A stretch of 64,000 bases of DNA from an uncultured Flavobacteriales bacterium (GCA_938084585.1 CALKFF010000009.1:1-64000), one strand, 5' to 3'. Shown: positions 5,410-63,768, numbered from the stretch's first letter. Program-made: numbers and translations. Notes: generated by a model not told the origin, from the sequence alone.

Positions 5410-5417
5410 TACCTTCG
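5410..5417 (+). promoter_or_regulatory. TAnnTTNG -7 element (TACCTTCG), 4 nt before ATG 5422
   Basis: TACCTTCG-AGTC-ATG. Confidence 0.6.
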
Positions 5418-5421
5418 AGTC

Positions 5422-7059
5422 ATGGCATCCGAAAACGACTTGGCGCGGAACCTCAACGAAGACCGCATGCGCATGCGTGTCGCCGACTTAGAGCGACTTC
5501 TGGCACGCGTGCGCCAAGGCGGTGGGCAAGCCCGCATCGAGAAAGAGCACGCCAAAGGAAAATGGACGGCCCGCGAACGTCTCGGCAAGCTGTTCGACCC
5601 GGGTTGCGAGCGGCTGGAGATCGGCGCACTGGCAGGTCACGGGATGTACGAGGAAGAAGGCGGATGCCCTTCCGGTGGCGTGGTGGTGGAGCTCGGCCGA
5701 ATCCACGGCAAACTGTGTTTGGCCGTGGCCAACGACGCCACCGTGAAAGCCGGCGCGTGGTTCCCGATCACAGGCAAAAAAAACCTCCGCGCCCAAGAAA
5801 TTGCCCTGGAAAACCGCTTGCCGATCATCTATTTGGTGGACAGCGCCGGGGTGTACTTGCCCATGCAAGACGAGATCTTCCCGGACAAGGAACACTTCGG
5901 GCGGATGTTCAGGAACAACGCCAAACTCTCTTCTGCCGGCATTCCACAAATCGCCGCGGTGATGGGAAGTTGTGTCGCCGGGGGAGCCTACCTCCCCATC
6001 ATGAGCGACGAGAGCATCATTGTGGAGGGCACGGGGTCCATCTTCCTGGCTGGGAGCTACCTCGTGAAGGCCGCCATTGGCGAGGACATCGACAACGAAA
6101 CCCTCGGCGGGGCCCAAACCCACGACGAAATCTCAGGTGTGACGGACTACCGCTGCGCCAACGAAGAGGAGGCGTTGACGCACATTCGCAAGCTTGCCTC
6201 GCACTGGGGCGATTTGGGCCCCAAGGCAGGTTTCCAAAGGGACGCCGCTTTGTCGCCGGCTTCTCCCTCCATTTGCGGGGTCGTGCCCGACGCCCGAACG
6301 GAACCCTACGACACACGCGACCTTCTCGACGCCCTTGTGGACCAGGACAGTTTCACCGAGTACAAATCTGGGTACGGCAAAACCTTGGTGTGTGGGTATG
6401 CGCGCATCGACGGATGGAGTGTGGGCATTGTGGCCAACCAACGCACGGTGGTGAAGAGCAAGAAGGACGGCCTTCAGTTTGGCGGGGTGATTTACTCCGA
6501 CAGCGCAGACAAAGCCGCCCGTTTCATCATGACCTGCAACCAGCGCAACGTGCCCCTGGTGTTCTTGCAAGACGTCACCGGCTTCATGGTCGGGTCCAAA
6601 TCGGAACACGGCGGCATCATCAAGGACGGCGCCAAAATGGTCAACGCGGTCGCCAACAGCGTGGTCCCCAAGTTCACCGTCGTGGTGGGCAACAGCTACG
6701 GCGCCGGGAATTACGCCATGTGCGGCAAGGCCTACGACCCACGGCTGATCGTGGCTTGGCCCACAGCACGCTTGGCAGTGATGGGCGGCACCCAAGCGGC
6801 CAAGGTGCTCCTGCAGATTGAAAAGGCCTCTTTGAAGAAACAGGGAAAGGCCCCCACCGAAGCCGAGGAGCAGACCCTTCTTGACACCATCACCCAACGG
6901 TACGACGAGCAAACCGAGCCCGTGTACGCCGCAGCGCGACTGTGGGTGGACGCCATCATCGACCCCAACCACACCCGGTCTTGGATTTCCATGGGCATTG
7001 AAGCCGCAAACGAGGCGCCCATCGCTGCTGCTTTCCGGCCGGGGGTCTTGCAAACTTGA
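5422..7059 (+). CDS. Acyl-CoA carboxylase carboxyltransferase (beta) subunit
   Basis: MASENDLARNLNEDRMRMRVADLERLL...AAVMGSCVAGGAYLPIMSDESIIVEGTGSIFLAGSYLVKAAIGEDIDNETLGGAQTH; typical methylcrotonyl/propionyl-CoA carboxylase beta. Confidence 0.92.
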   Translation: MASENDLARNLNEDRMRMRVADLERLLARVRQGGGQARIEKEHAKGKWTARERLGKLFDPGCERLEIGALAGHGMYEEEGGCPSGGVVVELGRIHGKLCLAVANDATVKAGAWFPITGKKNLRAQEIALENRLPIIYLVDSAGVYLPMQDEIFPDKEHFGRMFRNNAKLSSAGIPQIAAVMGSCVAGGAYLPIMSDESIIVEGTGSIFLAGSYLVKAAIGEDIDNETLGGAQTHDEISGVTDYRCANEEEALTHIRKLASHWGDLGPKAGFQRDAALSPASPSICGVVPDARTEPYDTRDLLDALVDQDSFTEYKSGYGKTLVCGYARIDGWSVGIVANQRTVVKSKKDGLQFGGVIYSDSADKAARFIMTCNQRNVPLVFLQDVTGFMVGSKSEHGGIIKDGAKMVNAVANSVVPKFTVVVGNSYGAGNYAMCGKAYDPRLIVAWPTARLAVMGGTQAAKVLLQIEKASLKKQGKAPTEAEEQTLLDTITQRYDEQTEPVYAAARLWVDAIIDPNHTRSWISMGIEAANEAPIAAAFRPGVLQT

Positions 7060-7070
7060 CAGAAACAACC

Positions 7071-7961
7071 ATGAGACACCCAGCCCTCCTCCTCCTTCTT
7101 TGGACCTTGACGTCGTGTTTGGCGTGGTCCCAGACGAAGGCCCAATCCAAATCCATGCGCGGCAACCCCGCCGCCTACGCCCTGTACCAAGGTGATGGCA
7201 CACCTGCCACTTGGTCCGATTTGGTGACTGAAGCCTTGGAAGCCGACGTGGTGTGCTTCGGAGAATTGCACGACGATGCCGTCATGCATTGGCTCCAGCA
7301 GGAGCTGGTGCGCAGCCTGTTGGACCAGGGGGCTCAACCCAGCTTGGGGGCCGAGATGTTGGAAGCGGACGACCAACTCGTGGTGAACGAATACCTCGCG
7401 GGCGTCGTCAACTTGGACAAACTGGAAGCGGCGGCCAACCTTTGGCCCAACCACGCCACAGACTACCAACCTCTGTTGGACTTGGCCAAGGAACACGGGT
7501 TGACCATGACCGCCACCAACGTGCCTCGGCGTTACGCGTCGTGGGTCTACAAGCACGGGCTCGACGGCTTGAAAGACCTGTCCCCAGACGCCCAGGCCTA
7601 CTTGCCGTCGCTGCCAGTGGCCTTCGACCCCTCCCTGCCAGGGTACGACGCGATGTTGGCCATGGCCGGAGGGCACGGCGGGGAAACCCTGCCCATGGCG
7701 CAGGCCATCAAGGACGCCACCATGGCGCATTGGATCTTGCAAACCCGCACGGAAGGCCAACCTTTCGTGCACGTCAACGGCTCGTACCACAGCCAGGATT
7801 GGGAAGGCATCGTCTGGTACCTCCGGCAAGCCCAACCTGACTTGAACGTCCTCACCATTCACGGCGACACCCAGGTCGACGTATGGACCCCGGACAGCAC
7901 GGCTTTGAACCGGGCAGACTTCCTCGTGCTGACCCAAGCCCAAATGACCCGCACGCACTGA
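7071..7961 (+). CDS. ChaN-family (haem-binding uptake/Tiki superfamily) lipoprotein
   Basis: Signal LLLLLWTLTSC then VVCFGELHDDAVMHWLQQEL and DYQPLLDLAKEHGLTMTATNVPRRYASWVYKHG. Confidence 0.8.
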   Translation: MRHPALLLLLWTLTSCLAWSQTKAQSKSMRGNPAAYALYQGDGTPATWSDLVTEALEADVVCFGELHDDAVMHWLQQELVRSLLDQGAQPSLGAEMLEADDQLVVNEYLAGVVNLDKLEAAANLWPNHATDYQPLLDLAKEHGLTMTATNVPRRYASWVYKHGLDGLKDLSPDAQAYLPSLPVAFDPSLPGYDAMLAMAGGHGGETLPMAQAIKDATMAHWILQTRTEGQPFVHVNGSYHSQDWEGIVWYLRQAQPDLNVLTIHGDTQVDVWTPDSTALNRADFLVLTQAQMTRTH

Positions 7962-16258: not shown

Positions 16259-16270
16259 CACAAACCGTTT

Positions 16271-16391
16271 TTTGTTTAACGAACTGAAGCAAAGATTAAA
16301 CAAACCTCTCCTCGCGCCAACTTTTTGTTCAACGTTTTTCAAAAAACGTTCAACATTTTTTCAGGAAATCCTGAAAACCAACATGTTAAAC
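16271..16391. promoter_or_regulatory. Repeat-rich operator-like region between sigma factor and MerR/B12 genes
   Basis: Inverted repeats TTTGTTTAA/TTAAACAAA (16271-16304), AACGTTTTT-ca-AAAAACGTT (16331-16350), TTTTCAGGA-aa-TCCTGAAAA (16358-16377), plus GTTYAAC-like half-sites. Confidence 0.55.
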
Positions 16392-16410: not shown

Positions 16411-17385
16411 TCAGTGCAAAATCTTTTGCACAAGGCTCGCTCCGTCGGCGTGCACGGTGGTGTTGGCGCCTCCAGCCGCCTGTTTGAACACCCCACCGCC
16501 GAGGTGAAAAGTCACGTCCGAACCGGCAAACGTCCGGTCGATTCGGTCCAGGTAATCCTGGGCTTGATCCGCCGCGGGGGACGTCGTGCAATACGACACA
16601 AAACACACGTCCTCGAACTGGGCGGCCACGTTCACCAAGTCGTCAAAAGGCACACTCTGGCCCAAGAACACGCTATGACGCCCCGCAGACCTGCAGAGGT
16701 GGTGAAGAAACAGCAAGGAGATGTCGTGGATCTCGCGTTCCGGCAAATACAGCACAATCACCCTGCCTTTCTCTTGCCCCTCCGGAACGGGGGCGTTGTG
16801 GATTTCAGCAAACAGCATTTGACGAAGGAGGTTGCTCATGAAATGCTCATGGGCAGGACAAATGGTGTCGGTCAACCAAAGCACACCCACTTCCGCCAAA
16901 AAAGGCAAGGCCACACTCAGCACCGCTCCATCGAAGGTCAACCGGTCCACGCATTCTTGCATGGTGCCGCGAAACAGCGTCTCGTCGTAAGTCATCATGG
17001 CGAGCTTCAGCCGCTGCTTCGCCAGCGCCTCTCCGCCTTCGTCCGCTACACTCGGACCTTCCGCGACCATCTGGGCCAACTGCTTGGGCGACAACCCTGC
17101 GATCTTGGAAATCTTCAGTCCACGCTCCAAGAGCAAGGCCACGTTGAGGAGCTTCTTCAAGTCCTCTCCACCATAAGTCCGGATGTTCGTGGAAGACCTG
17201 TTGGGGTTCAACAGGGCGTACCTCTGTTCCCAAGCGCGGATGGTGTGCGCCTTGACCCCAGAGAGGTTCTCCAAATCCTTGATTGAAAATTCTTGCTTCA
17301 CGCGGTCCTCCTGCACCATGTGATGTGGTGCAAAAATGTGAACACCCTTTTCGGGCCTTTGGTTCACATCATAAGTTTGCTCCAT
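16411..17385 (-). CDS. MerR-family regulator with C-terminal cobalamin-binding domain (CarH/LitR-like)
   Basis: FSIKDLENLSGVKAHTIRAWEQRYALLNPNRSSTNIRTY HTH; W-X9-EH motif (WLTDTICPAHEH); EIHDIS near ExHxxG. Start uncertain (17385 or nearer 17306). Confidence 0.85.
   Translation of the reverse strand: MEQTYDVNQRPEKGVHIFAPHHMVQEDRVKQEFSIKDLENLSGVKAHTIRAWEQRYALLNPNRSSTNIRTYGGEDLKKLLNVALLLERGLKISKIAGLSPKQLAQMVAEGPSVADEGGEALAKQRLKLAMMTYDETLFRGTMQECVDRLTFDGAVLSVALPFLAEVGVLWLTDTICPAHEHFMSNLLRQMLFAEIHNAPVPEGQEKGRVIVLYLPEREIHDISLLFLHHLCRSAGRHSVFLGQSVPFDDLVNVAAQFEDVCFVSYCTTSPAADQAQDYLDRIDRTFAGSDVTFHLGGGVFKQAAGGANTTVHADGASLVQKILH
17372..17379 (+). promoter_or_regulatory. TAAGTTTG -7 element, 4 nt before ATG 17384
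   Basis: TAAGTTTG-CTCC-ATG. Confidence 0.6.
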
Positions 17386-18487
17386 GACAGATACAAGGTT
17401 CTTGGACAACGGTGATTCGGCCGAATTCTATCCATTGAACGCCCTCAAGGGGGTGCAAGAGCTTCATTTTGGAGTACGGACCATTGCAAAACAATGGCAA
17501 GAAGTCTTGCGGGACAACCCCCACATTCGAATTCATTCACGGCTCATGCCCACCCACGACAACGCGATGGCCGTGTTGAATCTGTCAGATGGAGACGGCC
17601 TGTCGCGCGGTGACGAGCTGGTCGCCCTGCGTGGTGCGGAAGCGGTAAACGTGCATGAATTGCAGGCAGACGCCCTTTGGTTGAACGACGCCGCCCACCT
17701 CTTTGAGCTCTGCGGGTTGGGGTTGGAGGAGGATTTGTCCAGGCTTCAACTCGCGTGGCGGCTCCGCGCGTTGCAAGAAGAGGAGCGCGAAGCTTGGCAA
17801 GCCCAGGGTGTGCGCGTCCACGGTCCCATGTCCAGCGTGTGGCTTGCCCCCGGGGCGGTGCTGCGGGACGTCAGCTTGAACACAGAACAAGGCCCCGTCG
17901 TGGTGGGCCCCGACGCAGAAATCATGGAGGGATGTCGCGTCCGTGGCCCCTTTGCCCTTGGGGAAGGATCCCAACTGCGCATGGGCACCTTGGTCTACGG
18001 CGCGACCACCGTGGGCCAAGGCTGTAAAATGGGCGGCGAATTGAGCAACGTGGTCGTTCACGACTGGTCCAACAAGGCCCACGGCGGTTTTTTGGGCAAT
18101 GCGGTGCTTGGGTCTTGGTGCAACCTCGGGGCCGAGACCACGTGCAGCAACTTGAAAAACACCTACGGGGTGATTGCCGAATGGAGCGAGGACAGCCAGT
18201 CCTTTGAACCCAAGGGACGCCAGTTCTGCGGCTTGCTCATGGGCGACCACAGCAAAACCGCTATTCACACCGCCTTTTCCACGGCCACCGTGGTTGGGGT
18301 GATGGCCAATGTGTTCGGGGAGCAGACGCCTCCCCGCCATGTTCCAAATTTCCAATGGGGCGTGGACGGCGACGCCCAAATCGACCTTGACAAAGGCCTT
18401 GACGTGGCCCGAAAAGTCATGGCGCGCCGCAAGCAGACCATGTCCGCCAGCGAGGAGCATGCCATTCGGGCACTCTTTTCAAAATAA
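17384..18487 (+). CDS. GlmU-like putative sugar-nucleotidyl/acetyltransferase with left-handed beta-helix
   Basis: FYPLNALKGVQELHFGVRTIAKQW, hexapeptide-like repeats GPVVVGPDAEIMEGCRVRGPFALGEGSQLRMGTLVYGATTVGQGC. Confidence 0.75.
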   Translation: MTDTRFLDNGDSAEFYPLNALKGVQELHFGVRTIAKQWQEVLRDNPHIRIHSRLMPTHDNAMAVLNLSDGDGLSRGDELVALRGAEAVNVHELQADALWLNDAAHLFELCGLGLEEDLSRLQLAWRLRALQEEEREAWQAQGVRVHGPMSSVWLAPGAVLRDVSLNTEQGPVVVGPDAEIMEGCRVRGPFALGEGSQLRMGTLVYGATTVGQGCKMGGELSNVVVHDWSNKAHGGFLGNAVLGSWCNLGAETTCSNLKNTYGVIAEWSEDSQSFEPKGRQFCGLLMGDHSKTAIHTAFSTATVVGVMANVFGEQTPPRHVPNFQWGVDGDAQIDLDKGLDVARKVMARRKQTMSASEEHAIRALFSK

Positions 18488-18558
18488 GTCTGCCAAGCTG
18501 TCGCAACATGTCGGGTGGCACGGCGTTTGACCTGTGCCTGTCCACACACGCCCTGACC

Positions 18559-20985
18559 ATGAACATCAAACTGAGCGACACCCAGGACCAAGAGTTCATC
18601 CCCATTTTGACCGAGGAGGATGAAACGGCCATGCAGGAAACCGACATTCCAGAGGTGCTCCCGCTGCTGTCGCTTCGCAACACCGTGCTGTTTCCCGGGG
18701 TGGTGATTCCGATCAGCGTGGGGCGAGACAGGTCTGTGCGGCTGATCAAAGAAGCGAACAAGGCCGACCAGGTAATTGGGGTGGTGAGCCAAAAGGAAGA
18801 CGACACCGAGGTGCCCGGGCCGGACGACTTGAACAACGTCGGCACCGTGGCCCGCATCATGAAGATGTTGAAGATGCCCGACGGCACCAACACCGTGATC
18901 CTCCAAGGGCAACAACGATTCAAGTGGGACGAAGTCATCCAAGAAGAACCCTACCTCAAGGCCAAGGTCTCGGCTTACGGGGGGATTGAAGAGCCCCTGC
19001 CCGAAAAAGAGGGCCAGGCCATGGTGGAGAGCTTGCGGGAGTTGGCCGCCGAGCTCATTGAAATGAATCCCAACATCCCCACGGAAGCTGCCGAGGCCAT
19101 CAAGGGCATCAACCGCCTGGGGTTTTTGGTCAATTTCATCGGCAGCAACATGCAGGTGAAGGTGGACGAGAAACAGCGCATTCTCGAAGAAGTCGACCTC
19201 GGAAAACGCGCCCAAACGGTGTTGGAGTTGCTGCACAAGGAGAAGCACATGCTTTCCCTGAAGCAGGACATCCACGCCAAGGTCAAAACCGACCTCGACC
19301 AACAGCAGCGCGAGTTCTTCCTCCACCAGCAGATGAAGACCATCCAGGACGAGTTGGGGGCCAACCCGTTGAAGGAAGAAATTCAGGAGAAGCGCGCCAA
19401 AGCGGCGGACAAAAACTGGCCTGACCACGCCAGAGCGGCCTTCGACAAGGAACTCGGCAAGCTGGAACGGATGAACCCCCAGGGCAGCGAGTACAGCGTG
19501 CAGTCCAACTACCTGGACGTGATGCTCGAACTTCCTTGGAACGAGGTCTCCGACGACAACTTCGACTTGACCCACGCCCAAGCGGTGTTGGACCAAGACC
19601 ACCACGGGTTGGAAAAAGTGAAGGAGCGCATCATTGAACACTTGGCGGTGCTCAAAATCAAGGGCGACATGAAAGCCCCCATCCTCTGCCTGTACGGCCC
19701 TCCGGGGGTGGGCAAAACCTCCTTGGGACGCAGCATCGCCGAAGCGCTGGGACGGAAATACGTCCGCATGAGCTTGGGCGGGTTGCGCGACGAAGCTGAA
19801 ATCCGCGGCCACCGCAAGACCTACATCGGCGCCATGCCGGGACGGGTGCTTCAAAACCTCAAGAAAGCGGGCACGAGCAACCCGCTGTTCATCTTGGACG
19901 AAATCGACAAGTTGGGCAGGGACCACCACGGCGACCCTTCCTCCGCCCTGCTCGAAGTGCTCGACCCTGAGCAGAACCACACCTTCCACGACAATTACCT
20001 CGACTTGGACTACGACCTGAGCAAGGTGATGTTCTTGGCCACGTGCAACGACTTGAGCACCATCCAGCCCGCACTCCGGGACCGCATGGAAATCATCGAC
20101 GTCAGTGGGTACACGCTGGAAGAGAAAGTGCAAATCGGCAAGCAGCACCTCTTGCCCAAGCACCTCAACGCCTCAGGACTCGCGCCTGCCAGCCTCAAGG
20201 TGCCCGTGGCCACCATCCAAGCTGTGGTGGAACAATACACGAACGAAAGCGGGGTGCGGGGCTTGGACAAGCGGCTGGCCAAACTCGTGCGTCACCGCGC
20301 CAAACAAATTGCCCTCGAGGAAGCCCACGAGGTGACCGTCGGCGCAGATCACCTGCACGACATTTTGGGCATTGCCAGGGAAAAGGACAAGTACGAGGGA
20401 AACGACGTGGCAGGCGTGGTGACTGGCCTGGCTTGGACACCCCGTGGCGGCGACATCCTCTTCATCGAATCGTCCCTCACGCCGGGCAAAGGCAAGTTGA
20501 CCCTGACGGGGAATTTGGGGGCCGTCATGAAGGAATCCGCGGTGATCGCGTTGCAGCACCTCAAGGCCCATGCCGATTGGCTGGGGTTGACCCCCGACGT
20601 GTTTGACAAGTGGGACATCCACATTCACGTGCCGCAGGGCGCCATTCCCAAAGACGGTCCGAGCGCCGGCATCACCATGCTCACGGCCCTGGCCAGCGCC
20701 TTCACCCAGCGCAAGGTCCGGAAGTACTTGGCCATGAGTGGGGAAATCACGTTGCGCGGGCAAGTGTTGCCTGTGGGTGGCATCAAGGAGAAAATCCTGG
20801 CCGCCAAGCGGGCCGGCATCAAGGAAATCATCCTGTGCGAGCGCAACCGCAAAGACGTGGACGACATCAACCCTCGCTACATCAAGGGACTGAGTTTCAC
20901 CTACGTCACGCAGATGCGCGAAGTGGTGGACAGGGCCTTGCTCGGACAACAAGTGGACAACCCCCTGCACGTGGTCGCCTCGTAA
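18559..20985 (+). CDS. lon: Endopeptidase La (Lon protease)
   Basis: [77 protein letters not shown]. Alternative start 18508. Confidence 0.97.
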
Positions 20986-20990
20986 CTTGC
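20983..20990 (+). promoter_or_regulatory. TAACTTGC -7-like element built on lon stop codon
   Basis: TAA (lon stop)-CTTGC-CAGC-ATG 20995. Confidence 0.5.
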
Positions 20991-20994
20991 CAGC

Positions 20995-22059
20995 ATGACC
21001 GCCCACTCCTGCCTCCGAATGGTGTTGGTGTCCAGCCTGGCGCTTGGACTCCACACGACCTGGGCGCAAGACGTCCCCACCTCCCTGGCTTGGGACGTGG
21101 CTGCAGCGCCTCGCCATGCCGCATTGGGCGGCTTGGACGTGGCCCCTTTGGAAGCCGACGGGTGGTCCGTGGCTGTGCATCCTTGCGCGTTGGATTCCTC
21201 CGTGGAACGCGACGTGTACACCTCTTACCTGGACTACTTCGCGGGAATTCGCTCTGGTGCCGTGACCTGGCCTTTGGCCCACCATGGCAAGCGCGCGTCC
21301 CATGTGGGCATCCGGTTTGCCTCGTTCGGGACGTTCGAAGGCACCACCGCTGCCGGCCTCGAGGCGGGCAACTTCTCCGGCGGCGACTACATCGCCCAGT
21401 ACGGCACGGCTTGGGCCTTGGGGCCACAATGGACGGTGGGCGCCACGGGGTGGACCGGGCTGCGGAACCTCGCGCAGGTCAATGCCGGCGTGTTGGGCGT
21501 GGACTTGGGGGCGCTTCGGCGCACCCGCAACGGCATGGGCGCCCTCGGCTTCGTCGTGAGCAACTTCGGCCTGCAGGAAGACTTTTCAGGCATCATGCCG
21601 CAAGGGCGGTTGCCGCACAACGTGCAGGTCGGCTGGACCCAAACTTTCCCCAACGCCCCCTTCACCTTCCACCTTCGCATGCAGCGGCTGAACACCTGGG
21701 AGCTTGCCCCAGAAGGCACGTACGACGACGCCTACGACCCGCTGACCGGGGAAGTCATCCCCAACGACCTTTGGGAATGGGGAGACCAATTCGCCCGGCA
21801 CTTGACGGGTGGGGTCACGTTGAAGCTGGGCCCGCAATTGACGGGCCACTTGGGCTACAACCACCAACGCCAAAAAACGATGGTCGCCGCAGGACGAACT
21901 GGCCTGAATGGGCTCTCCCTGGGGCTCCAAGGCCAGTTCAAAGCGCTCCGCTACAGCGTGGCCAGAAGCGTGTACCACTTCGCGGGAACCTCCACGCATT
22001 TGGCCTTGGCGATTCAAGTGCCGCAACAAGGCGGTGAATCTGGGGCGAATCGGCCCTGA
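20995..22059 (+). CDS. porQ: Type IX secretion system-associated protein PorQ-like
   Basis: Signal peptide, AWDVAAAPRHAALGGLDVAP..., beta-barrel style sequence, immediately upstream of cmk as in other Bacteroidota. Confidence 0.78.
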   Translation: MTAHSCLRMVLVSSLALGLHTTWAQDVPTSLAWDVAAAPRHAALGGLDVAPLEADGWSVAVHPCALDSSVERDVYTSYLDYFAGIRSGAVTWPLAHHGKRASHVGIRFASFGTFEGTTAAGLEAGNFSGGDYIAQYGTAWALGPQWTVGATGWTGLRNLAQVNAGVLGVDLGALRRTRNGMGALGFVVSNFGLQEDFSGIMPQGRLPHNVQVGWTQTFPNAPFTFHLRMQRLNTWELAPEGTYDDAYDPLTGEVIPNDLWEWGDQFARHLTGGVTLKLGPQLTGHLGYNHQRQKTMVAAGRTGLNGLSLGLQGQFKALRYSVARSVYHFAGTSTHLALAIQVPQQGGESGANRP

Positions 22060-22077: not shown

Positions 22078-22085
22078 TATCTTCG
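22078..22085 (+). promoter_or_regulatory. TATCTTCG -7 element, 4 nt before ATG 22090
   Basis: TATCTTCG-ACGC-ATG. Confidence 0.6.
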
Positions 22086-22089
22086 ACGC

Positions 22090-22791
22090 ATGGGTCGCAG
22101 TCGCATCAACATCGCCATTGACGGGCACTCAAGTGCCGGAAAGAGCACCATGGCCAAAACTTTGGCCAAAGAACTCAATTACGTCTACATCGACACGGGC
22201 GCGATGTACCGCGCAGCGACGCTTCACGCGATGAAAGAGCGCAGTGTCGTGGACACCGAAGTGAACGAGGTGGGGTTGCGCGCGGGGTTGGAGCGCATGT
22301 TCCTTGCGTTCAAATACAACCCCAAGACCGAGCAATCAGAAATTCACCTCAACGGCGTGAATGTCGAGAAGGAGATCCGAAGCATGGACGTGGCCAACAA
22401 GGTGAGTCTTGTGGCACGCGTGCCCGAGGTCAGGACCAAACTTGTGGCCATTCAGCAACGCATGGCCGAAGCCGGCGGCGTGGTCATGGATGGCCGCGAC
22501 ATCGGCACCGTGGTGTTGCCCAACGCTGAACTGAAGGTCTTCATGACGGCGGACCCAGAGACGCGCGCCTACAGGCGGTTGCGTGAACTGCAGCTGGCGG
22601 GCAAGGACGTGTCGTACGACGACGTCTTGGACAACGTCCTCAGCCGCGACCGCATCGACTCTGAACGTGCGGTGGCGCCTCTGCGTCAAGCGGACGACGC
22701 GGTCGTGGTGGACAACAGCGACTTGACGGTGGAAGAGCAATTCAACTTCTTGCTCTCCCTGGCGCGAACCCGCATGGCGGACCGCACTTGA
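22090..22791 (+). CDS. cmk: (d)CMP kinase
   Basis: INIAIDGHSSAGKSTMAKTLAKELNYVYIDTGAMYRAATL, VVMDGRDIGTVVLPNAELKVFMTAD. Confidence 0.95.
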   Translation: MGRSRINIAIDGHSSAGKSTMAKTLAKELNYVYIDTGAMYRAATLHAMKERSVVDTEVNEVGLRAGLERMFLAFKYNPKTEQSEIHLNGVNVEKEIRSMDVANKVSLVARVPEVRTKLVAIQQRMAEAGGVVMDGRDIGTVVLPNAELKVFMTADPETRAYRRLRELQLAGKDVSYDDVLDNVLSRDRIDSERAVAPLRQADDAVVVDNSDLTVEEQFNFLLSLARTRMADRT

Positions 22792-34635: not shown

Positions 34636-34639
34636 CTCT

Positions 34640-34647
34640 CAAAGGTA
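34640..34647 (-). promoter_or_regulatory. TACCTTTG -7 element, 4 nt before ATG 34635
   Basis: Reverse complement: TACCTTTG-AGAG-ATG. Confidence 0.6.
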
Positions 34648-41346: not shown

Positions 41347-41350
41347 ACCG

Positions 41351-41358
41351 CGAAGGTA
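41351..41358 (-). promoter_or_regulatory. TACCTTCG -7 element, 4 nt before GTG 41346
   Basis: Reverse complement: TACCTTCG-CGGT-GTG. Confidence 0.55.
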
Positions 41359-43393: not shown

Positions 43394-43397
43394 GGAC

Positions 43398-43405
43398 GCA
43401 AACTA
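43398..43405 (-). promoter_or_regulatory. TAGTTTGC -7-like element, 4 nt before ATG 43393
   Basis: Reverse complement: TAGTTTGC-GTCC-ATG. Confidence 0.5.
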
Positions 43406-43485
43406 CCTCCTCCGACTGCAGCAGATGTGCACTTCATGTGGGCAATTTTCACAGCGCGTTGGTGAACAGCGACACGGCCTCCCTG

Positions 43486-43493
43486 TAGCTTCG
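43486..43493 (+). promoter_or_regulatory. TAGCTTCG -7-like element, 4 nt before ATG 43498
   Basis: TAGCTTCG-CGGC-ATG. Confidence 0.55.
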
Positions 43494-43497
43494 CGGC

Positions 43498-43986
43498 ATG
43501 GTGAAACACTGGTTCAATTGCAAGGTGAGCTCGCGGTCGTTGGACAGCGAGGGGGCGGAAGTGAAGAAGGTCGAGCAGTTTGTGCTGGACGCGTACACCT
43601 ACACCGAGGCGGAGACGCGCATGACCCAAATCTGCGAGTACGAGGGCATTCGGCCGTTTGAAATCACCCAGCTGACCAAAACCAACCTCATTGAGGTGAT
43701 TCGCTTTCCGGAGTGCGACAAGTGGTTCCGGGTCAAGGTGGCCATGACCACGTTCGACGCCGACAAGGGCACAGAAAAGGAGAGCAACCAACACATTCTG
43801 CTCAGCGCCATGGACGTGCGCGACGCCTTCGACAAAGTTTCTGGCCACATGAATCAACTCGGCGTGGGGTACGTCATCCCCTCCATTGCCTACCAGAAAA
43901 TTGTGGAAGTTTTTCCCCAAGACGAGTGGCAAGTCGTGGACGGCCAGGAACAACCCAAGGAAGACGCGGCACCGGTCGAAGCCTGA
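43498..43986 (+). CDS. DUF4494-family protein
   Basis: MVKHWFNCKVSSRSLDSEGAEVKKVEQFVLDAYTYTEAETRM; typical Bacteroidota DUF4494. Confidence 0.8.
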   Translation: MVKHWFNCKVSSRSLDSEGAEVKKVEQFVLDAYTYTEAETRMTQICEYEGIRPFEITQLTKTNLIEVIRFPECDKWFRVKVAMTTFDADKGTEKESNQHILLSAMDVRDAFDKVSGHMNQLGVGYVIPSIAYQKIVEVFPQDEWQVVDGQEQPKEDAAPVEA

Positions 43987-48584: not shown

Positions 48585-48614
48585 TTTGCGCGGTAGAAAA
48601 ACTGACTATCTTTG
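48585..48614 (+). promoter_or_regulatory. Bacteroidota-type promoter TTTG-N18-TATCTTTG for tRNA-Lys/Leu
   Basis: TTTG 48585-48588, TATCTTTG 48607-48614, tRNA begins 48636. Confidence 0.8.
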
Positions 48615-49545: not shown

Positions 49546-49602
49546 CCACGGCGCAACCCGGGTCACACACCCGCCTTTCTCCGACCCGTACCTTGCCATC
49601 CA

Positions 49603-51339
49603 TTGATTGGCCCAGTGCGATTCCTTTCCCACATTCCCTGCCTGACTTGGTTGCGCACCTATTCCAAAGCGCAATGGAAAGGAGATTGGCCTGCCGGTCT
49701 CACGGTGGGCATCATGCTCATCCCCCAAGGCATGGCCTACGCGATGATTGCAGGACTCCCCGTGGTGTATGGCCTTTACGCGGCATTGGTACCTCAAATT
49801 GTCTACGGGATCTTCGGGACCTCGAGGCACTTGGCGGTGGGACCTGTGGCCATGGACAGCTTGTTGGTTGCCGCTGGCCTGGGCGGAATGGCCATGGTGG
49901 GGACGGAACGGTACATTGAATTGGCGCTGCTGCTCTCGGTGATGATGGGCCTCATGCAATGGGGCATGGGCATGCTCCGCATGGGCTTCATGGTCCACTT
50001 CTTGTCCAAACCCGTCATCAGCGGGTTCACAAGCGCTGCAGCCCTCTTGATTGGGCTGAACCAATTGCCCCATTTGGGTGGGGTCGCATGCGAACGGAGC
50101 AACCAAGTGCACTTGTTGTTGGCCAACCTCATGGATGCGGCATCCGGCACTCACGGACTCACGCTTGGCGTGGGCCTTGGGGCCATGCTCATGCTCAAAG
50201 TGTTGAAAGCATGGGTTCCCAAGCTGCCCGGCTCGTTGGTGGTCGTGCTGGGGAGCGTCGCTGCATCTTGGGGCGTGGGGCTCGAAGTGCTGGGCGTCCA
50301 AGTGGTGGGCCACATTCCAAAGGGCCTCCCTTCCGCAGGCCTTCCCACTTGGGGCATGAGCGACGTCAAGACCTTGTGGCCCGTGGCGTTGACCCTGGCC
50401 TTGGTGGCCTTCATGGAGGCCATCAGCGTGGCCAAGGCCGTGGAAGAACGGCACGACTACGACGTGGACGCCAACCAAGAACTCAAAGCCTTGGGCATGG
50501 CCAATGTGCTCGGGGCGTTCTTCCAAAGCTACCCCACCACTGGAGGGTTTTCCCGCACCGCGGTCACCGAGCAATCCGGCGGCCAAACGCCTGTCACCGC
50601 CTGGATTGCGGCGGCTGTGGTGGCCTTGACCTTGGTCCTGTTGACCCCCGTGTTTCACCATCTGCCCAACGCCGTCCTTGCGGCCGTGGTGCTGGTGGCC
50701 GTGGCTGGGCTCGTGGACCTGCAATTCCCGCGCAAGCTTTGGCACCAAGACAAGTGGGAGGCCGGTGTGCTTGCCATCACCTTTCTCGTCACCCTCGTGG
50801 TGAGCTTGCCCATGGGCATTGGCGTCGGGGTGACCCTCGCGTTGGCCTTGTGGATTCGGCAGATGATGACCCCTCACCACGCCGTGCTGGGCAACGTCCA
50901 CGGGGTGCACAGGAATGTGGAACGCTTCAAGGATGCGGTGGTTGTGCCTGAAGTGCTCGTGGTCCGTTACGACGGGGCGCTGACGTTCGCCAACCAAAGC
51001 CACTTCAAGCGCACCCTCCATACCTGGGTGACGCGCAAGGGGGCGCCACTTCAATTGATTGTCATTCAGGCCGACACCATTTCCCACATCGACGCGAGTG
51101 CCCGTGTGACCTTCCGAAACTTGGTCCAGGAATGGCGGGAAGCTGGCCTTCAGGTGTGCTTGGCCGGCGCCATTGGCCCTGTCCGGGACACCCTGGCTTC
51201 CGACGGTTTCTTGGACGAAGGGAACATCTCCTTTCAATTGAATGTGGACGATGCGTTGGCCGAGTTCGACCGTCCAGGCTCCGTGTCTCGTCGCAACCAA
51301 GCCATGGCCCAGCAACACTCTGCTTCGGATGAATCTTGA
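49603..51339 (+). CDS. SulP-family inorganic anion transporter with STAS domain
   Basis: WPAGLTVGIMLIPQGMAYAMIAGLPVVYGLYAALVPQIVYGIFGTSRHLAVGPVA; C-terminal STAS. TTG start 49603. Confidence 0.94.
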   Translation: MIGPVRFLSHIPCLTWLRTYSKAQWKGDWPAGLTVGIMLIPQGMAYAMIAGLPVVYGLYAALVPQIVYGIFGTSRHLAVGPVAMDSLLVAAGLGGMAMVGTERYIELALLLSVMMGLMQWGMGMLRMGFMVHFLSKPVISGFTSAAALLIGLNQLPHLGGVACERSNQVHLLLANLMDAASGTHGLTLGVGLGAMLMLKVLKAWVPKLPGSLVVVLGSVAASWGVGLEVLGVQVVGHIPKGLPSAGLPTWGMSDVKTLWPVALTLALVAFMEAISVAKAVEERHDYDVDANQELKALGMANVLGAFFQSYPTTGGFSRTAVTEQSGGQTPVTAWIAAAVVALTLVLLTPVFHHLPNAVLAAVVLVAVAGLVDLQFPRKLWHQDKWEAGVLAITFLVTLVVSLPMGIGVGVTLALALWIRQMMTPHHAVLGNVHGVHRNVERFKDAVVVPEVLVVRYDGALTFANQSHFKRTLHTWVTRKGAPLQLIVIQADTISHIDASARVTFRNLVQEWREAGLQVCLAGAIGPVRDTLASDGFLDEGNISFQLNVDDALAEFDRPGSVSRRNQAMAQQHSASDES

Positions 51340-51398: not shown

Positions 51399-51406
51399 TA
51401 CCTTTG
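51399..51406 (+). promoter_or_regulatory. TACCTTTG -7 element, 5 nt before ATG 51412
   Basis: TACCTTTG-AGGCC-ATG. Confidence 0.6.
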
Positions 51407-51411
51407 AGGCC

Positions 51412-52824
51412 ATGGAAGTCAAACAGATTTACACGGGCTGTCTTGCCCAAGGCGCGTATTGCATCGAAAGCCAAGGGGAAATGGCCATCATTGACCCCCT
51501 TCGTGAAGTGCAGCCCTACCTCGACTTGGCTGAGGGCCGCGGCGCCCGCATTAAATACGTGCTTGAAACGCACTTCCATGCGGATTTCGTGTCCGGGCAC
51601 GTGACCCTCGCCGAGAAGACCGGCGCCCCCATTGTGTTTGGCCCCAACGCCAACCCTGGGTTCGAGGCGCACATCGCCCAAGACGGGGAACGTCTCCAAG
51701 TGGGCGCCGTGGAAATTGAAGTGCTCCACACCCCAGGGCACACGATGGAAAGCACCACATACTTGTTGCGTGACGAGCAGGGGCAACCCCACGCCATTTT
51801 CTCGGGCGACACCCTGTTTTTGGGAGATGTGGGGCGGCCTGATTTGGCGCAGAAAAGCGACCTCACCATGGAGGACCTCGCGGGACATTTGTTCGACAGC
51901 CTTCGCCACAAAATCATGACGCTCCCCGACGAGACCATTGTCTACCCTGGCCACGGCGCCGGCTCAGCGTGCGGCAAGAACATGAGCAAGGAAACCGTGG
52001 GAACCTTGGGCGACCAAAAAGCGACCAACTACGCGTTGCGCGAGGACATGACCAAAGATGAGTTCGTGAAGGAAGTCATCGACGGCCTGTTGCCCCCTCC
52101 CGGCTATTTCCCGCTGAATGTGGCGATGAACAAGGGTGGGTACGAGAGCATCGACGACGTGATGGCCCGCGGCACGCGGGCGCTGTCCCCGGAGGCGTTC
52201 GAAGCCGCGGCCAACGAAACCTCGGCAGTGGTGTTGGACGTGAGGCCCACGGCGGAGTTCATTGAAAGGCATGTCCCAAGGTCGACGTTCATCGGGCTGC
52301 AGGGCGGGTTTGCCCCATGGGTTGGCGCGGTGATTGTCGACGTGAAACAACCGATTTTGCTCATCGCCAACGACGACCAAATCGAAGAAGCCATCACCCG
52401 CCTTTCGCGTGTCGGGTTCGACAACGTCCTCGGCCACCTCGAAGGGGGCGTGGACGCGTGGGTGGCGGCAGGCAAGGAGACCGACCACATTGAAACCGTG
52501 GATGCCAAAGCGTTTGAACATGTGTTGGCCAACCATCCAGACACCTGCGTCGTGGACGTGAGAAAGGACGGCGAGTTCAGCGCCTCCCATGTGGAAGGTG
52601 CAGCGCATGCCTCCTTGGAATTTTTGGGCAACCACCTCGAACGCGTCCCCAAAGACACCCTGTTCTACATCCACTGTGCCGGGGGGTACCGGAGCGTCAT
52701 CGCACACTCCATGCTCAAAGCCCGCGGATACCACAACGGGATCGACGTCTTGGGAGGATTCAAAGCCATCGAAGCCACGTCCATCCCCACCACAGATTTT
52801 GTCTGCCCGAGCACGTTGAAGTGA
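51412..52824 (+). CDS. MBL-fold hydrolase with C-terminal rhodanese domains (persulfide dioxygenase-like)
   Basis: VLETHFHADFVSGHVTLAEKTGAPIVFGP, HTPGHTMESTTYLL, FSGDTLFLGDVGRPDL, VYPGHGAGSACGKN; C-term FYIHCAGGYRSVIAHSML. Confidence 0.92.
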   Translation: MEVKQIYTGCLAQGAYCIESQGEMAIIDPLREVQPYLDLAEGRGARIKYVLETHFHADFVSGHVTLAEKTGAPIVFGPNANPGFEAHIAQDGERLQVGAVEIEVLHTPGHTMESTTYLLRDEQGQPHAIFSGDTLFLGDVGRPDLAQKSDLTMEDLAGHLFDSLRHKIMTLPDETIVYPGHGAGSACGKNMSKETVGTLGDQKATNYALREDMTKDEFVKEVIDGLLPPPGYFPLNVAMNKGGYESIDDVMARGTRALSPEAFEAAANETSAVVLDVRPTAEFIERHVPRSTFIGLQGGFAPWVGAVIVDVKQPILLIANDDQIEEAITRLSRVGFDNVLGHLEGGVDAWVAAGKETDHIETVDAKAFEHVLANHPDTCVVDVRKDGEFSASHVEGAAHASLEFLGNHLERVPKDTLFYIHCAGGYRSVIAHSMLKARGYHNGIDVLGGFKAIEATSIPTTDFVCPSTLK

Positions 52825-52825: not shown

Positions 52826-52854
52826 TTGACTTCAATTCCGATGCGTTACCTTTG
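52826..52854 (+). promoter_or_regulatory. Bacteroidota-type promoter TTG-N18-TACCTTTG for tRNA-Leu
   Basis: TTG 52826-52828, TACCTTTG 52847-52854; same spacing as tRNA-Lys promoter. Confidence 0.8.
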
Positions 52855-53040: not shown

Positions 53041-53048
53041 TAATTTTG
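53041..53048 (+). promoter_or_regulatory. TAATTTTG -7 element, 4 nt before ATG 53053
   Basis: TAATTTTG-TGTC-ATG. Confidence 0.6.
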
Positions 53049-53052
53049 TGTC

Positions 53053-54165
53053 ATGGTTCAAGGAGACCCGTCTGCACGATTCTCAATCAACCACCCGTTG
53101 GGACAAGAAAAACGTCCTGTGGTGGTGGCCGGACCGTGCAGTGCCGAATCCAGAGAACAGGTGCTCCACACGGCCAAATCCTTGGCCGAGGGCGGGCGGG
53201 TTCAGTTCTTTCGCGCCGGACTGTGGAAGCCGCGCACCAGGCCCAACTCGTTTGAAGGTCTGGGAGAACAAGCCTTGCCATGGCTCATGGAAGCGGAGGC
53301 CACGACCGGCCTCAGGGCCATCACGGAGGTCGCGACCCCTGAGCACGTGGAGAAGGTGCTCAACGCAGGCATGTCCGCCGTCTGGATTGGGGCGCGCACC
53401 ACGGTGAGCCCCTTTGCCGTCCAAGCCATCGCGGAAGCGTTGGAAGGCACGGACCTCTTGGTCATGGTCAAGAACCCCATGCACGCCGATTTGAAATTGT
53501 GGATTGGGGCGCTGGAACGCGTCGCCTCGTGCACACGCGGCCAAGTCTGTGGTTTGCACCGGGGCTTTTCGAGCTACGGCAGCTCTGAATTCCGCAATGC
53601 GCCCATGTGGGAGATTCCAATCGCGCTGCGGTCAGAGATGCCAGAAGTCCCGCTGTTCTGCGACCCTTCCCACATTTCTGGCAAAGCGGAACACTTGCAG
53701 GACGTGGCCCAACGCGCCATGAATCTTGGCATGGAAGGGCTGATGATTGAAAGCCACCCCTCCCCTGCGCAAGCGCTGAGCGACGCCGAGCAACAAATCA
53801 CCCCCGACGCCCTGGACCGGTTGCTCGCCCAACTGGACGTGCCGGTCCAACACGTTGTCAACGACGACGCCCAAGAATCCCTGGACGCCCTGAGGCTTCA
53901 AATCGACAGTGTGGACGAGCAATTGTTGCACATGCTCGACAAGCGCATGACACTCGCCCGTGAGATCGGGGCGTTGAAACATCGGAACAAGTGGTCTCTT
54001 CTGAGCGTAGCGCGCTGGCGAGACATTGTGAAGAGCCGCCTGGATTGGGCCAGTCAAATGGGATTGAACCACGACTTCCTGTCCAAGATTTTGGCGTCCG
54101 TCCACGAAGAAAGCATCCGGGTGCAAGGCGACGAGGCCGACAAGGAGCGCTCGAAGCAAGCGTGA
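53053..54165 (+). CDS. Bifunctional 3-deoxy-7-phosphoheptulonate synthase / chorismate mutase
   Basis: VVVAGPCSAESREQVLHTAKSL, FRAGLWKPRTRPNSFEG, PLFCDPSHISGK; C-term LDALRLQIDSVDEQLLHMLDKRMTLAREIGALK chorismate mutase. Confidence 0.93.
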   Translation: MVQGDPSARFSINHPLGQEKRPVVVAGPCSAESREQVLHTAKSLAEGGRVQFFRAGLWKPRTRPNSFEGLGEQALPWLMEAEATTGLRAITEVATPEHVEKVLNAGMSAVWIGARTTVSPFAVQAIAEALEGTDLLVMVKNPMHADLKLWIGALERVASCTRGQVCGLHRGFSSYGSSEFRNAPMWEIPIALRSEMPEVPLFCDPSHISGKAEHLQDVAQRAMNLGMEGLMIESHPSPAQALSDAEQQITPDALDRLLAQLDVPVQHVVNDDAQESLDALRLQIDSVDEQLLHMLDKRMTLAREIGALKHRNKWSLLSVARWRDIVKSRLDWASQMGLNHDFLSKILASVHEESIRVQGDEADKERSKQA

Positions 54166-58833: not shown

Positions 58834-58841
58834 TACCTTTC
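58834..58841 (+). promoter_or_regulatory. TACCTTTC -7-like element, 4 nt before ATG 58846
   Basis: TACCTTTC-CACC-ATG. Confidence 0.5.
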
Positions 58842-58845
58842 CACC

Positions 58846-59718
58846 ATGCGCTTTCACACGATTCACACCGGGAATTTCAAACTGGACGGCGGGGCCATGT
58901 TTGGGGTGGTTCCCAAGCAACTTTGGTCCAGGACCAACCCGGCGGACAGCCAGAATTTGTGCACGTGGGCGATGCGTTCCCTGCTTGTCGAAGTCGGCGA
59001 CCGCCTGGTGCTCATCGACTGCGGCATTGGGGACAAGCAATCGGAAAAATTCTTCAGCCACTACCATTTGCACGGGGCGCACAGCTTGGACTCGAGTTTG
59101 GCGCAAGCTGGATTCTCAAGGGGAGACATCACAGACGTGTTCCTGACGCACTTGCATTTCGACCACGTCGGAGGTGCTGTGGTTCGTAGGGCAGATGGGC
59201 AACTGGTCCCCGCTTTCCCCAACGCGACGTTTTGGAGCAACGACGCGCATTGGGATTGGGCCATGAACCCCAATGCCAGGGAGAAAGCGTCGTTCCTGCG
59301 TGACAACTTGCAACCCTTGCGGGACTCGGGGCAACTCCGCATGGTGGAACGCACCGGACGCATCACCCACAACGCCATGGGCATCGAAGGGTGGGACATC
59401 TTCTTTGCCGATGGCCACACAGAGAGCCAAATGATCCCGTTGCTCCGGCACGGACAAGGCCAGACCACCGCCTTCATGGCCGACTTGCTCCCAAGCACAG
59501 GGCACATCCCCCTGGCCTACGTCATGGGGTACGACACGCGCCCCCTGCTCACCTTGGAAGAGAAAAAGCTGTTCTTGGACACCGCGGCCAACGAAGTTTG
59601 GACGTTGTTCTTGGAGCACGACGCCCAACACGCCGCCTGCACCGTTCGTCACACTGAAAAGGGAGTTCGGCTGGACCAGGCGGCCCCCACGTGGCACGAA
59701 CTCCACGGCAGGCCCTGA
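58846..59718 (+). CDS. MBL-fold metallo-hydrolase
   Basis: DVFLTHLHFDHVGGAVVR, SLLVEVGDRLVLIDCGIGDK, FADGHTESQMIPLL. Confidence 0.92.
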   Translation: MRFHTIHTGNFKLDGGAMFGVVPKQLWSRTNPADSQNLCTWAMRSLLVEVGDRLVLIDCGIGDKQSEKFFSHYHLHGAHSLDSSLAQAGFSRGDITDVFLTHLHFDHVGGAVVRRADGQLVPAFPNATFWSNDAHWDWAMNPNAREKASFLRDNLQPLRDSGQLRMVERTGRITHNAMGIEGWDIFFADGHTESQMIPLLRHGQGQTTAFMADLLPSTGHIPLAYVMGYDTRPLLTLEEKKLFLDTAANEVWTLFLEHDAQHAACTVRHTEKGVRLDQAAPTWHELHGRP

Positions 59719-59727: not shown

Positions 59728-60753
59728 TCAGGCCAACCCCTGAACCAGACGACTCGGCAAGCCAGGTCCCTGGTAAATCATGCCGGAGTACACCTGGACA
59801 AGGCTGGCCCCGGCGTCCAATTTCTCCTGGGCTGCCTCCACGCTGTCGATCCCGCCCACACCAATGATGGGGAATTGACCTTGACTCTTGGCGGCCAAGT
59901 GACGAATCACCTCTGTGGCCCGCTCCCGCACAGGCGCACCGCTCACGCCGCCAGGCCCCATGGCGCTCACGGTTTCGGAATCGGTGGCGAGGCCTTCTCT
60001 AGAAATGGTGGTGTTGGTGGCCACCACGCCGTCGACCTTTTCGCTGAGGACAATGTCCACGATGTCGTCCAATTGGCCGTCGGTCAAATCTGGCGCAATC
60101 TTCAGGAACACTGGACGCTTGCCTGGATGGTCCGCGTTGCGCTTGACCACTGCCCGCAACAACGCCGTCAAAGGCTCCTTGTCTTGCAACTCCCTCAACC
60201 CTGGGGTGTTGGGGGAACTCACATTGACCACGAAGTAATCCACGTGGGCATGCATGGCGTCCACACAAGCGAGGTAATCGTCCACCGCACGGTCGTTGGG
60301 GGTGATTTTGTTCTTGCCAATGTTGCCTCCCACAACCAACCCTTCAGGCCGGCGGACCAATCGCGCCACAGCCGGCACCAAACCCTCGTTGTTGAACCCC
60401 ATTCGATTGAGGACACCCTCGTCCTCCACCAGGCGAAACAGCCGAGGCTTCGGGTTGCCCGACTGGGCCCTCGGCGTCACCGTCCCAATCTCCACAAATC
60501 CAAAGCCGAGCAGCGCCAGGGCGTCCAGCCACTTTGCGTCTTTGTCGAACCCCGCGGCCAAACCCACCCTGTTTGGAAACTTCAGTCCAGCAACCTCAAC
60601 CTCTTGTCCTTCATTGTGTTGACGGACTTTTCTGCGCAAAAACCAAGGCACTCCAGGAATGCGTGACGCCAGCACAAAAAGGTCCATGGCGGCGTAGTGC
60701 GCACGCTCAGGAGTCATCCAAAAAAACAGGGGCTTGAGAAGCTTTTGATACAC
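59728..60753 (-). CDS. pyrD: Quinone-dependent dihydroorotate dehydrogenase
   Basis: NRVGLAAGFDKDAKWLDALALLGFGFVEIGTVTPRAQSGNPKPRLFRL; VNVSSPNTPGLRELQ. GTG start. Confidence 0.96.
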   Translation of the reverse strand: MYQKLLKPLFFWMTPERAHYAAMDLFVLASRIPGVPWFLRRKVRQHNEGQEVEVAGLKFPNRVGLAAGFDKDAKWLDALALLGFGFVEIGTVTPRAQSGNPKPRLFRLVEDEGVLNRMGFNNEGLVPAVARLVRRPEGLVVGGNIGKNKITPNDRAVDDYLACVDAMHAHVDYFVVNVSSPNTPGLRELQDKEPLTALLRAVVKRNADHPGKRPVFLKIAPDLTDGQLDDIVDIVLSEKVDGVVATNTTISREGLATDSETVSAMGPGGVSGAPVRERATEVIRHLAAKSQGQFPIIGVGGIDSVEAAQEKLDAGASLVQVYSGMIYQGPGLPSRLVQGLA

Positions 60754-60757
60754 GCGG

Positions 60758-60765
60758 CAAAACTA
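60758..60765 (-). promoter_or_regulatory. TAGTTTTG -7 element, 4 nt before GTG 60753
   Basis: Reverse complement: TAGTTTTG-CCGC-GTG. Confidence 0.6.
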
Positions 60766-61461: not shown

Positions 61462-61902
61462 TCAATCGGCCATGCGGGCCAAATCGCGCGCCTGATCCTT
61501 GTCCTTCAGGCTTTGTCGTTTGTCGTGCAACTTCTTCCCCTTGGCCACCGAAAACTTGAGCTTGGCGTACCCGCTTTGCGAAATGAAGAGCAACGTCGGA
61601 ACCAACGTCACTCCAACATCTTTTACCTTCTTTTCTAGCTTTTTAAGCTCTGTTCTTTGAAGCAAAAGTTTACGCTTTCGTTTCGAGTCCTGGGGCATGT
61701 ATCCGGCGTTGGCGTATTCCGCCACGTACATGTTGTGCACCCACAATTCACCCGCGTCAAACCTGCAATAGCCTTCGGTGATGCTCGCCTTGCCGGCCCG
61801 AATGGATTTGATTTCTGACCCAGAGAGCACCAGCCCCGCCGTGAACTCGTCGGTGAGGAAATAGGTGTAGGACGCCTTTTTGTTTTTGATGTTCACGGCC
61901 AT
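61462..61902 (-). CDS. smpB: SsrA-binding protein
   Basis: IKNKKASYTYFLTDEFTAGLVLSGSEIKSIRAGKASITEGYCRF; KKLHDKRQSLKDKDQARDLAR. Confidence 0.96.
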   Translation of the reverse strand: MAVNIKNKKASYTYFLTDEFTAGLVLSGSEIKSIRAGKASITEGYCRFDAGELWVHNMYVAEYANAGYMPQDSKRKRKLLLQRTELKKLEKKVKDVGVTLVPTLLFISQSGYAKLKFSVAKGKKLHDKRQSLKDKDQARDLARMAD

Positions 61903-61906
61903 GCCA

Positions 61907-61914
61907 CGAAGTTA
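61907..61914 (-). promoter_or_regulatory. TAACTTCG -7 element, 4 nt before ATG 61902
   Basis: Reverse complement: TAACTTCG-TGGC-ATG. Confidence 0.55.
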
Positions 61915-62969: not shown

Positions 62970-62976
62970 CAGAAGT

Positions 62977-62984
62977 TACCTTGC
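62977..62984 (+). promoter_or_regulatory. TACCTTGC -7-like element, 4 nt before ATG 62989; TTTG 17 nt upstream
   Basis: TTTG-N17-TACCTTGC-ATCC-ATG. Confidence 0.6.
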
Positions 62985-62988
62985 ATCC

Positions 62989-63768
62989 ATGACGGATTCC
63001 ATCCTTTCTCACCTTCACCATGGCGTGATGACCATCACGCTCAACCGCCCTGAAGTCTTCAACAGCTTCAACCAAGGCATGGGACGCGCATTCCAGGAAG
63101 CCTTGGACGAGGCCGCCCAGGACGACAACGTCAGGTGCGTGGTCATCACAGGGGCGGGTCGCGCCTTCTGCGCGGGTCAAGATTTGAAGGAAGTCACGGC
63201 CGAGTCTTCGCCCGGCTTCAAAGTGATTGTGGAAGAGACCTACAACCGAAGCATCCGCCGCATCTGCGACATGGACAAGCCCGTGGTGGCGGCTGTGAAT
63301 GGCGTGGCTGCCGGCGCTGGCGCCAACATTGCGCTGGCCTGCGACTTTGTGGTCGCCAAAAGTTCGGTCAAATTCATCCAAGCCTTTGCCAACATTGGGT
63401 TGATTCCAGATAGCGGAGGCACGTATTGGCTGCCCCGCCTTGTGGGCATGGCGCGGGCGAAAGCGTTGACCATGCTCGGCGCCCCCTTGCCTGCCCAGGA
63501 CGCCCAAGACCTCGGGCTCATCCACTCGTGCGTGGCCGACGACGCGTTCCAGGACGAGGTGGACCAACTGGCCTCCAAATTGGCCAGCATGCCGACCCGC
63601 GGGTTGGGTTTGACCAAAAAAGCCCTGCACGCAGGCGCCCACAACACCTTGGACGTGCAGTTGGCGTTGGAATTGGATTGGCAATTTGAAGCTGCAGAAA
63701 CGGAGGACTACGCGGAGGGTGTGGCGGCGTTTTTGGAAAAACGGTCACCCAAATTCCAAGGGCGATGA
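62989..63768 (+). CDS. Enoyl-CoA hydratase/isomerase family protein (PaaG-like)
   Basis: VMTITLNRPEVFNSFNQGMGRAFQEAL, VITGAGRAFCAGQDLKEV, GVAAGAGANIALACDFVVA. Confidence 0.92.
   Translation: MTDSILSHLHHGVMTITLNRPEVFNSFNQGMGRAFQEALDEAAQDDNVRCVVITGAGRAFCAGQDLKEVTAESSPGFKVIVEETYNRSIRRICDMDKPVVAAVNGVAAGAGANIALACDFVVAKSSVKFIQAFANIGLIPDSGGTYWLPRLVGMARAKALTMLGAPLPAQDAQDLGLIHSCVADDAFQDEVDQLASKLASMPTRGLGLTKKALHAGAHNTLDVQLALELDWQFEAAETEDYAEGVAAFLEKRSPKFQGR

Follow-up and report, generated by a model that had tools for sequence, protein, structure and literature searches.

Sigma-A-type promoter boxes abutting start codons predict frequent leaderless mRNAs in a genus of uncultured marine Flavobacteriales

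Introduction

Where does an mRNA begin when the promoter box stands almost against the start codon? This question is raised by a stretch of 64,000 nucleotides from an uncultured Flavobacteriales bacterium (GCA_938084585.1 CALKFF010000009.1:1-64000), which as a whole is called the window below. The octamer TAnnTTYG, or its form TAnnTTGC, repeatedly stands there four nucleotides before a start codon, and a first-pass annotation took this arrangement to predict leaderless mRNAs. Such mRNAs have been reported as rare in Bacteroidota, and the studies in which transcription was mapped in this phylum held that they cannot explain its missing Shine-Dalgarno (SD) signals. The analysis described here strongly favors the explanation that a sigma-A box abuts start codons in this genus and that the genes behind it give rise to leaderless mRNAs.

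Sequences and analysis

The window belongs to a metagenome-assembled genome (MAG) of 1.94 Mb in 53 contigs that is 78% complete. Gene-level analysis was carried out on 1.21 Mb, and box variants were counted in 1.66 Mb of sequence from the genus. The Lon protein of the source is 98% identical to that of MAG Crocinitomicaceae RS402 and 95% identical to that of Flavobacteriales UBA7382; the host genus is a group of uncultured marine Flavobacteriales that includes these and other MAGs. Starts were predicted by a gene caller with no knowledge of the box, and an open reading frame (ORF) behind a box-proximal ATG was required to have at least 80 codons. Counts in the window were compared with 60 order-1 Markov sequences, and genome-wide counts were compared with the reversed pattern. 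The leaderless share is the control-subtracted fraction of box-bearing starts, obtained with one pipeline for all groups; named Lon loci served as controls.

Results

The box stands at a fixed distance from start codons

All 13 octamer-N4-start sites of the first-pass annotation and its four sites with gaps of 3–6 nt are present in the window sequence (Table 1); two of the latter (2551 and 5384) are minus-strand sites. The relaxed pattern octamer-N4-[AGT]TG was found 14 times, against an expectation of 1.3 +/- 1.2 and a maximum of 4 in the Markov sequences. The genome-wide positional spike that had been proposed as a check is very strong: both strands of the whole assembly hold 128 matches to TANNTTYG-N4-ATG and 10 to the reversed pattern. 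In the 1.21 Mb analyzed in detail, ATG was counted 6, 4, 85, 27, 9, 10, and 10 times at 2 to 8 nt from the box, respectively, over a background mean of 5.8 per distance at 12–59 nt. The peak thus falls exactly on 4 nt, flanked by a shoulder at 5 nt, and nearly all of these codons open an ORF of the required length (81/85 at 4 nt and 26/27 at 5 nt).

The last two letters of the box are flexible. When any pair was allowed, 207 matches were found at 4 nt, against 25 expected; TAnnTTTG accounted for 65 (4.7 expected) and TAnnTTCG for 56 (3.4 expected). The TTTC variant is also enriched at this distance, as are all TAnnTTGN forms, TTGG the most (TTGG 23, TTGC 14, TTGT 6, TTGA 5). The TAnnTTGC sites of the window match the SM5 class of F. 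psychrophilum (TAnnTTGY at −12 to −5, served by a separate sigma factor; PMC9723704) and may perhaps form a separate promoter class of this kind, though the peak distance here is the same as that of the other boxes. Unlike in SM5, every letter is enriched at the last position of TAnnTTGN, and a single degenerate box may underlie all of these forms.

The box is a sigma-A promoter element

The octamer is the −7 box of Bacteroidota sigma-A (sigma-ABfr; −33/−7 TTTG/TAnnTTTG). It is found upstream of 14 of the 16 tRNA units and, since these are non-coding, the box there is no translation signal. At 3–6 nt from the start, it precedes 47/294 divergent-first genes versus 14/369 tightly following genes; the pattern favors operon-first genes. 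Each of the 11 genus genomes holds one sigma-70 gene with region 3. In the genome of locus L224, its product has 289 aa and is a short RpoD of the Bacteroidota type, in which the absence of region 1.1 was judged by length alone. Unlike typical sigma-A promoters, the boxes described here tolerate the endings TTCG, TTGG, TTGC, and TTTC and are seen with no −33 box. The −33 TTTG element that the first-pass annotation had reported at a few promoters was not borne out by alignment, as no positional signal for it appeared in 84 leaderless or 66 leadered promoters. In F. johnsoniae, this element is likewise reported to be hardly visible (PMC6847099), and for this reason −33 TTTG is no firm defining feature of Bacteroidota sigma-A promoters.

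Transcription is predicted to start at the start codon

In F. psychrophilum, the box was mapped at −12 to −5 (PMC9723704), and in F. johnsoniae, 4–5 nt separate it from the transcription start site (TSS; PMC6847099). A start codon placed at box-N4-ATG would therefore have the TSS on its A, and the predicted TSS keeps to the 4–5 nt spacing of known Bacteroidota sigma-A promoters. The base composition of the genome gives a second indication. Leadered genes, which carry the box at 15–60 nt from the start, have a leader that is G-poor (14% G) and A-rich, and the shift from approximately 30% G upstream falls about 3–5 nt past the box (best likelihood at 3 nt; 67% of bootstraps at 3 nt, range 0–6). 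In the DNA upstream of leaderless boxes, G makes up 32%, as in untranscribed DNA. As far as the method can resolve it, the composition change is consistent with a TSS at the ATG. From the box-to-TSS spacing and the leader composition together, we infer that the 5' end of these mRNAs lies at the start codon.

In the proposed mechanism, the single primary sigma factor, which is of the Bacteroidota type, would recognize the −7 box, and the placement of this box (box, NNN, C, then ATG or GTG) would put the TSS on the first base, A or G, of the start codon. The resulting mRNA would begin with 5'-AUG and would be translated as a leaderless mRNA. Other leaderless mRNAs are translated in a 70S- or IF2-dependent manner, and the same is assumed for this lineage.

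Spacing and start codons

The starts at 4 nt comprise 76 ATG, 8 GTG, and 0 TTG. The expectation that the spacing also predicts unusual starts thus stands for GTG, which is enriched at 4 nt, and fails for TTG, which is not, so that the TTG site at 49603 (gap 6) is doubtful. The starts at 41346 and 5384 are uncertain because in-frame ATGs lie upstream and the motif-blind caller chose otherwise. This caller picked the same start in 60/80 cases at 4 nt. In 55/80 cases, upstream extension is barred by an in-frame stop, often the TAA or TAG of the box itself. The base at −1 is C in 82/85 of the ATGs at 4 nt versus 43% of all ATGs, and the base at +1 is a purine in every case, which is consistent with a pyrimidine-purine (YR) initiator. 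Pfam domains begin as early as residue 5 (SmpB) and residue 8 (cytidylate kinase).

Conservation and spread of the arrangement

The box is kept at 4 or 5 nt in 20/24 ortholog pairs versus 2/125 other genes. Its fixed letters are 85% identical between orthologs, whereas the N4 spacer is 31% and the upstream DNA 39–55% identical. At the lon locus, named relatives with approximately 60% protein identity have TAAGTTTG or TAATTTTG exactly 4 nt before the ATG, with differing spacers (ctcc, tggc, cgat, cagc, tgac).

Box-N4-ATG occurs 104–144 times in the 11 genus genomes (controls 8–27) and 111 times in a sister genus (control 9), while other members of the family mostly reach a 1.2- to 8-fold excess. 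Named Bacteroidales are without excess (Marinifilum breve 157 vs 161, Labilibaculum 124 vs 123), and no other group at this ratio was found among 396 sampled Bacteroidota genomes. A more distant family, f25, has members (G136, G113, G144, G101, and G105) with a 3–5 fold excess, possibly an independent gain. In G473 (genus g182, L161–L168), ATG stands 7 nt from the box in 7 cases and 4 nt from it in 4 cases (160 kb), and the genome-wide excess over control is approximately 2-fold. Followed over 101 genomes, the spike at 7 nt was weak in the genera g182 and g175, and most of the others showed no more than control levels.

A large share of first genes had been expected to be leaderless, and the sequence-based estimates support this: in the source genome, leaderless starts are predicted for approximately 13% of non-tight genes (unrefined starts), 26% of divergent genes (relaxed box, start refinement), and 41% of starts having any box within 120 nt. 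By the last measure, the share is 43% in other genus members and 37% in the sister genus, a rough value from samples of 69–88 non-tight genes. It falls to 12–17% in other genera of the family, 10% in a group with 64% Lon identity, 8% in Flavobacteriaceae, and 0% in Bacteroidales. In published TSS maps, leaderless transcripts make up 5.5% in F. psychrophilum (PMC9723704), leaders below 10 nt 3.7% in B. theta (PMC7366714), and leaders not exceeding 10 nt at most 13% in F. johnsoniae. The low pipeline values agree with the first two of these maps; the pipeline is therefore roughly calibrated, and the high value is lineage-specific. Most Bacteroidota show the trait weakly or not at all.

The 16S rRNA gene is missing from all 11 genus genomes. 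In two genera of the same family, the 16S 3' ends of L227 (G569) and L231 (G452) carry the anti-SD cores GGATTAACTCC and GGATTATCTCC in place of GGATTACCTCC, possibly through MAG contamination; the CCTCC core is normal in the six other genera read.

Divergent pairs of predicted leaderless promoters

Boxes within 80 bp of each other are divergent in 40 cases and convergent in 4. By called starts, 47/144 divergent gene pairs are less than 60 bp apart, versus 3/47 in Bacteroidales. Among the 144 pairs, both starts are predicted to be leaderless in 13 and one start in 60, though two of the 13 are doubtful, as their refined starts are separated by negative or very long distances. The shortest clear pair (G000 C21:29185) reads CAT-GGTG-CGAAAGTA-CTGC-TAACTTCG-AGGC-ATG, with 28 bp between the start codons. 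Each promoter's upstream region lies in the partner gene, which fits the missing −33 element. No report of divergent pairs 28–60 bp apart holding two leaderless promoters was found in the literature.

Back-to-back predicted leaderless promoters in pairs 28–60 bp apart were also seen at L197, at L144, and in the window at 5384–5422. The last pair has an intergenic region of 37 bp and boxes 12 bp apart, with an uncertain minus-strand start. A longer divergent region of 104 bp, at 43391–43500, has the same length in the relative L187, where its inner block (GATGTGCA..TGTGGGCAATTT..CAC..GGTGAAC) is kept; this suggests an operator or other element.

Other features of the window

The sites are collected in Table 1. 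At 20983–20997, the lon stop codon TAA forms the first three letters of the box of the next gene. Such overlaps of stop and box number 4 in the source genome and 7 in relatives and are not the main arrangement. Upstream of gene 15752–16258, a conserved inverted repeat, TTGTTTAA...TTAAACAA, occupies the box position (16259–16303, minus strand), in relatives too.

Table 1. Boxes in the window and the genes or tRNA units behind them (N, nucleotides between box and start)
Position	Strand	Box and spacing	Gene or unit	Remark
2549..2562	-	-7 box TACTTTTG + N3 + ATG	metallophosphatase	
5382..5397	-	-7 box TACCTTTG + N5 + GTG (5384)	periplasmic-binding protein	start uncertain, caller 5366
5410..5424	+	-7 box TACCTTCG + N4 + ATG	carboxyltransferase, 5422-7059	motif-blind caller also picks 5422
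17372..17386	+	-7 box TAAGTTTG + N4 + ATG	sugar nucleotidyltransferase-like	same spacing kept in 5 relatives
20983..20997	+	-7-type box TAACTTGC + N4 + ATG	gene downstream of lon (18508-20985)	
22078..22092	+	-7 box TATCTTCG + N4 + ATG	cytidylate kinase	conserved in 6 relatives
34633..34647	-	-7 box TACCTTTG + N4 + ATG	endonuclease/phosphatase family	
41344..41358	-	box TACCTTCG + N4 + GTG		start uncertain, in-frame ATG 11 codons upstream
43391..43405	-	-7-type box TAGTTTGC + N4 + ATG	PCMT	divergent partner of 43498
43486..43500	+	-7 box TAGCTTCG + N4 + ATG	DUF4494	
48607..48614	+	-7 box TATCTTTG	tRNA-Lys/tRNA-Leu unit	non-coding
49589..49605	+	box TACCTTGC + N6 + TTG	sulfate permease	weak case
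51399..51414	+	-7 box TACCTTTG + N5 + ATG	MBL-fold/rhodanese	
52847..52854	+	-7 box TACCTTTG	tRNA-Leu	
53041..53055	+	-7 box TAATTTTG + N4 + ATG	DAHP synthase/chorismate mutase	
58834..58848	+	box variant TACCTTTC + N4 + ATG	metallo-beta-lactamase fold	TTTC variant
60751..60765	-	-7 box TAGTTTTG + N4 + GTG	dihydroorotate dehydrogenase	box TAG = in-frame stop
61900..61914	-	-7 box TAACTTCG + N4 + ATG	smpB	box TAA = in-frame stop
62977..62991	+	-7-type box TACCTTGC + N4 + ATG	enoyl-CoA hydratase	

Discussion

Could the octamer be a translation-initiation element, Kozak-like or S1-binding, within a longer 5' untranslated region and no promoter at all? Its fixed distance to the start codon would suit such a role, and Bacteroidota are reported to use translation signals other than SD ahead of the start codon (PMC6847099). 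However, the same box before most tRNA units led us to reject a translation signal, and the depletion of the box before tightly following operon genes, its letter-for-letter match to the sigma-A −7 box, and its position 15–60 nt away in leadered genes make this explanation highly improbable. Misplaced starts are a second concern. The true starts could lie a few codons downstream and leave short leaders, and indeed, the next in-frame start has a median position 7 codons downstream. Nevertheless, orthologs keep the box and the ATG together with a diverged spacer between them, C precedes and a purine opens these starts, two Pfam domains begin within the first eight residues, and the motif-blind caller agrees on most of the ATGs, all of which renders general misplacement very unlikely. 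It is somewhat less improbable, though still unlikely, that the genome simply has the minor leaderless fraction of any Bacteroidota genome, exposed by its high G+C content. Some excess does occur across Flavobacteriales families, and AT-rich genomes have a high background, but the 41–43% of this genus stands well above the shares of a 54%-GC Flavobacteriales group (10%; Fisher P 2e-5), Flavobacteriaceae, and Bacteroidales.

The preferred explanation, a sigma-A box that directly adjoins the start codon, has its own weak points. The MAG is incomplete, and the gene-level work covered only part of it. The position of the TSS would follow from the mapping in F. psychrophilum and from composition within the genome, and the change-point is broad enough that a leader of 1–2 nt may exist. 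C at −1 is only partly a TSS signature, because it is also common before leadered (74%) and internal (61%) starts. Given the close next in-frame starts, single genes may start downstream.

Bidirectional bacterial promoters drive divergent transcription from one very short region. The pairs described here differ in that a leaderless coding mRNA is predicted in both directions, from start codons 28–60 bp apart. In Actinobacteria and Deinococcus-Thermus, leaderless shares of up to about 40% have been reported (PMC9581028, PMC3160421). As in these groups, start codons are preceded by a promoter element at a short, constant spacing, and leadered genes are mixed in. The element differs, being a Pribnow-type −10 box there and the Bacteroidota TAnnTTYG box at −12 to −5 here, and, unlike in those systems, no SD signal was seen in the start regions of this genome. 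Unlike in mapped Bacteroidota, the box abuts the start codon in approximately 41% of box-bearing starts.

Taken together, it seems reasonably probable that this lineage has made leaderless initiation a main mode of expression (about 40% of promoter-bearing genes) and packs divergent genes on bidirectional leaderless promoters of 28–60 bp, with the partner's coding sequence as the upstream region; the altered anti-SD in sister genera would hint at a coupled change in the ribosome. In practice, box spacing helps to call start codons better in these MAGs, and bidirectional leaderless promoters of very short length can be predicted from box placement. Given the clear gradient across genera, the change from leadered to leaderless genes can be tested within one order. 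In this lineage, leaderless genes appear to account for much of the missing SD signal.
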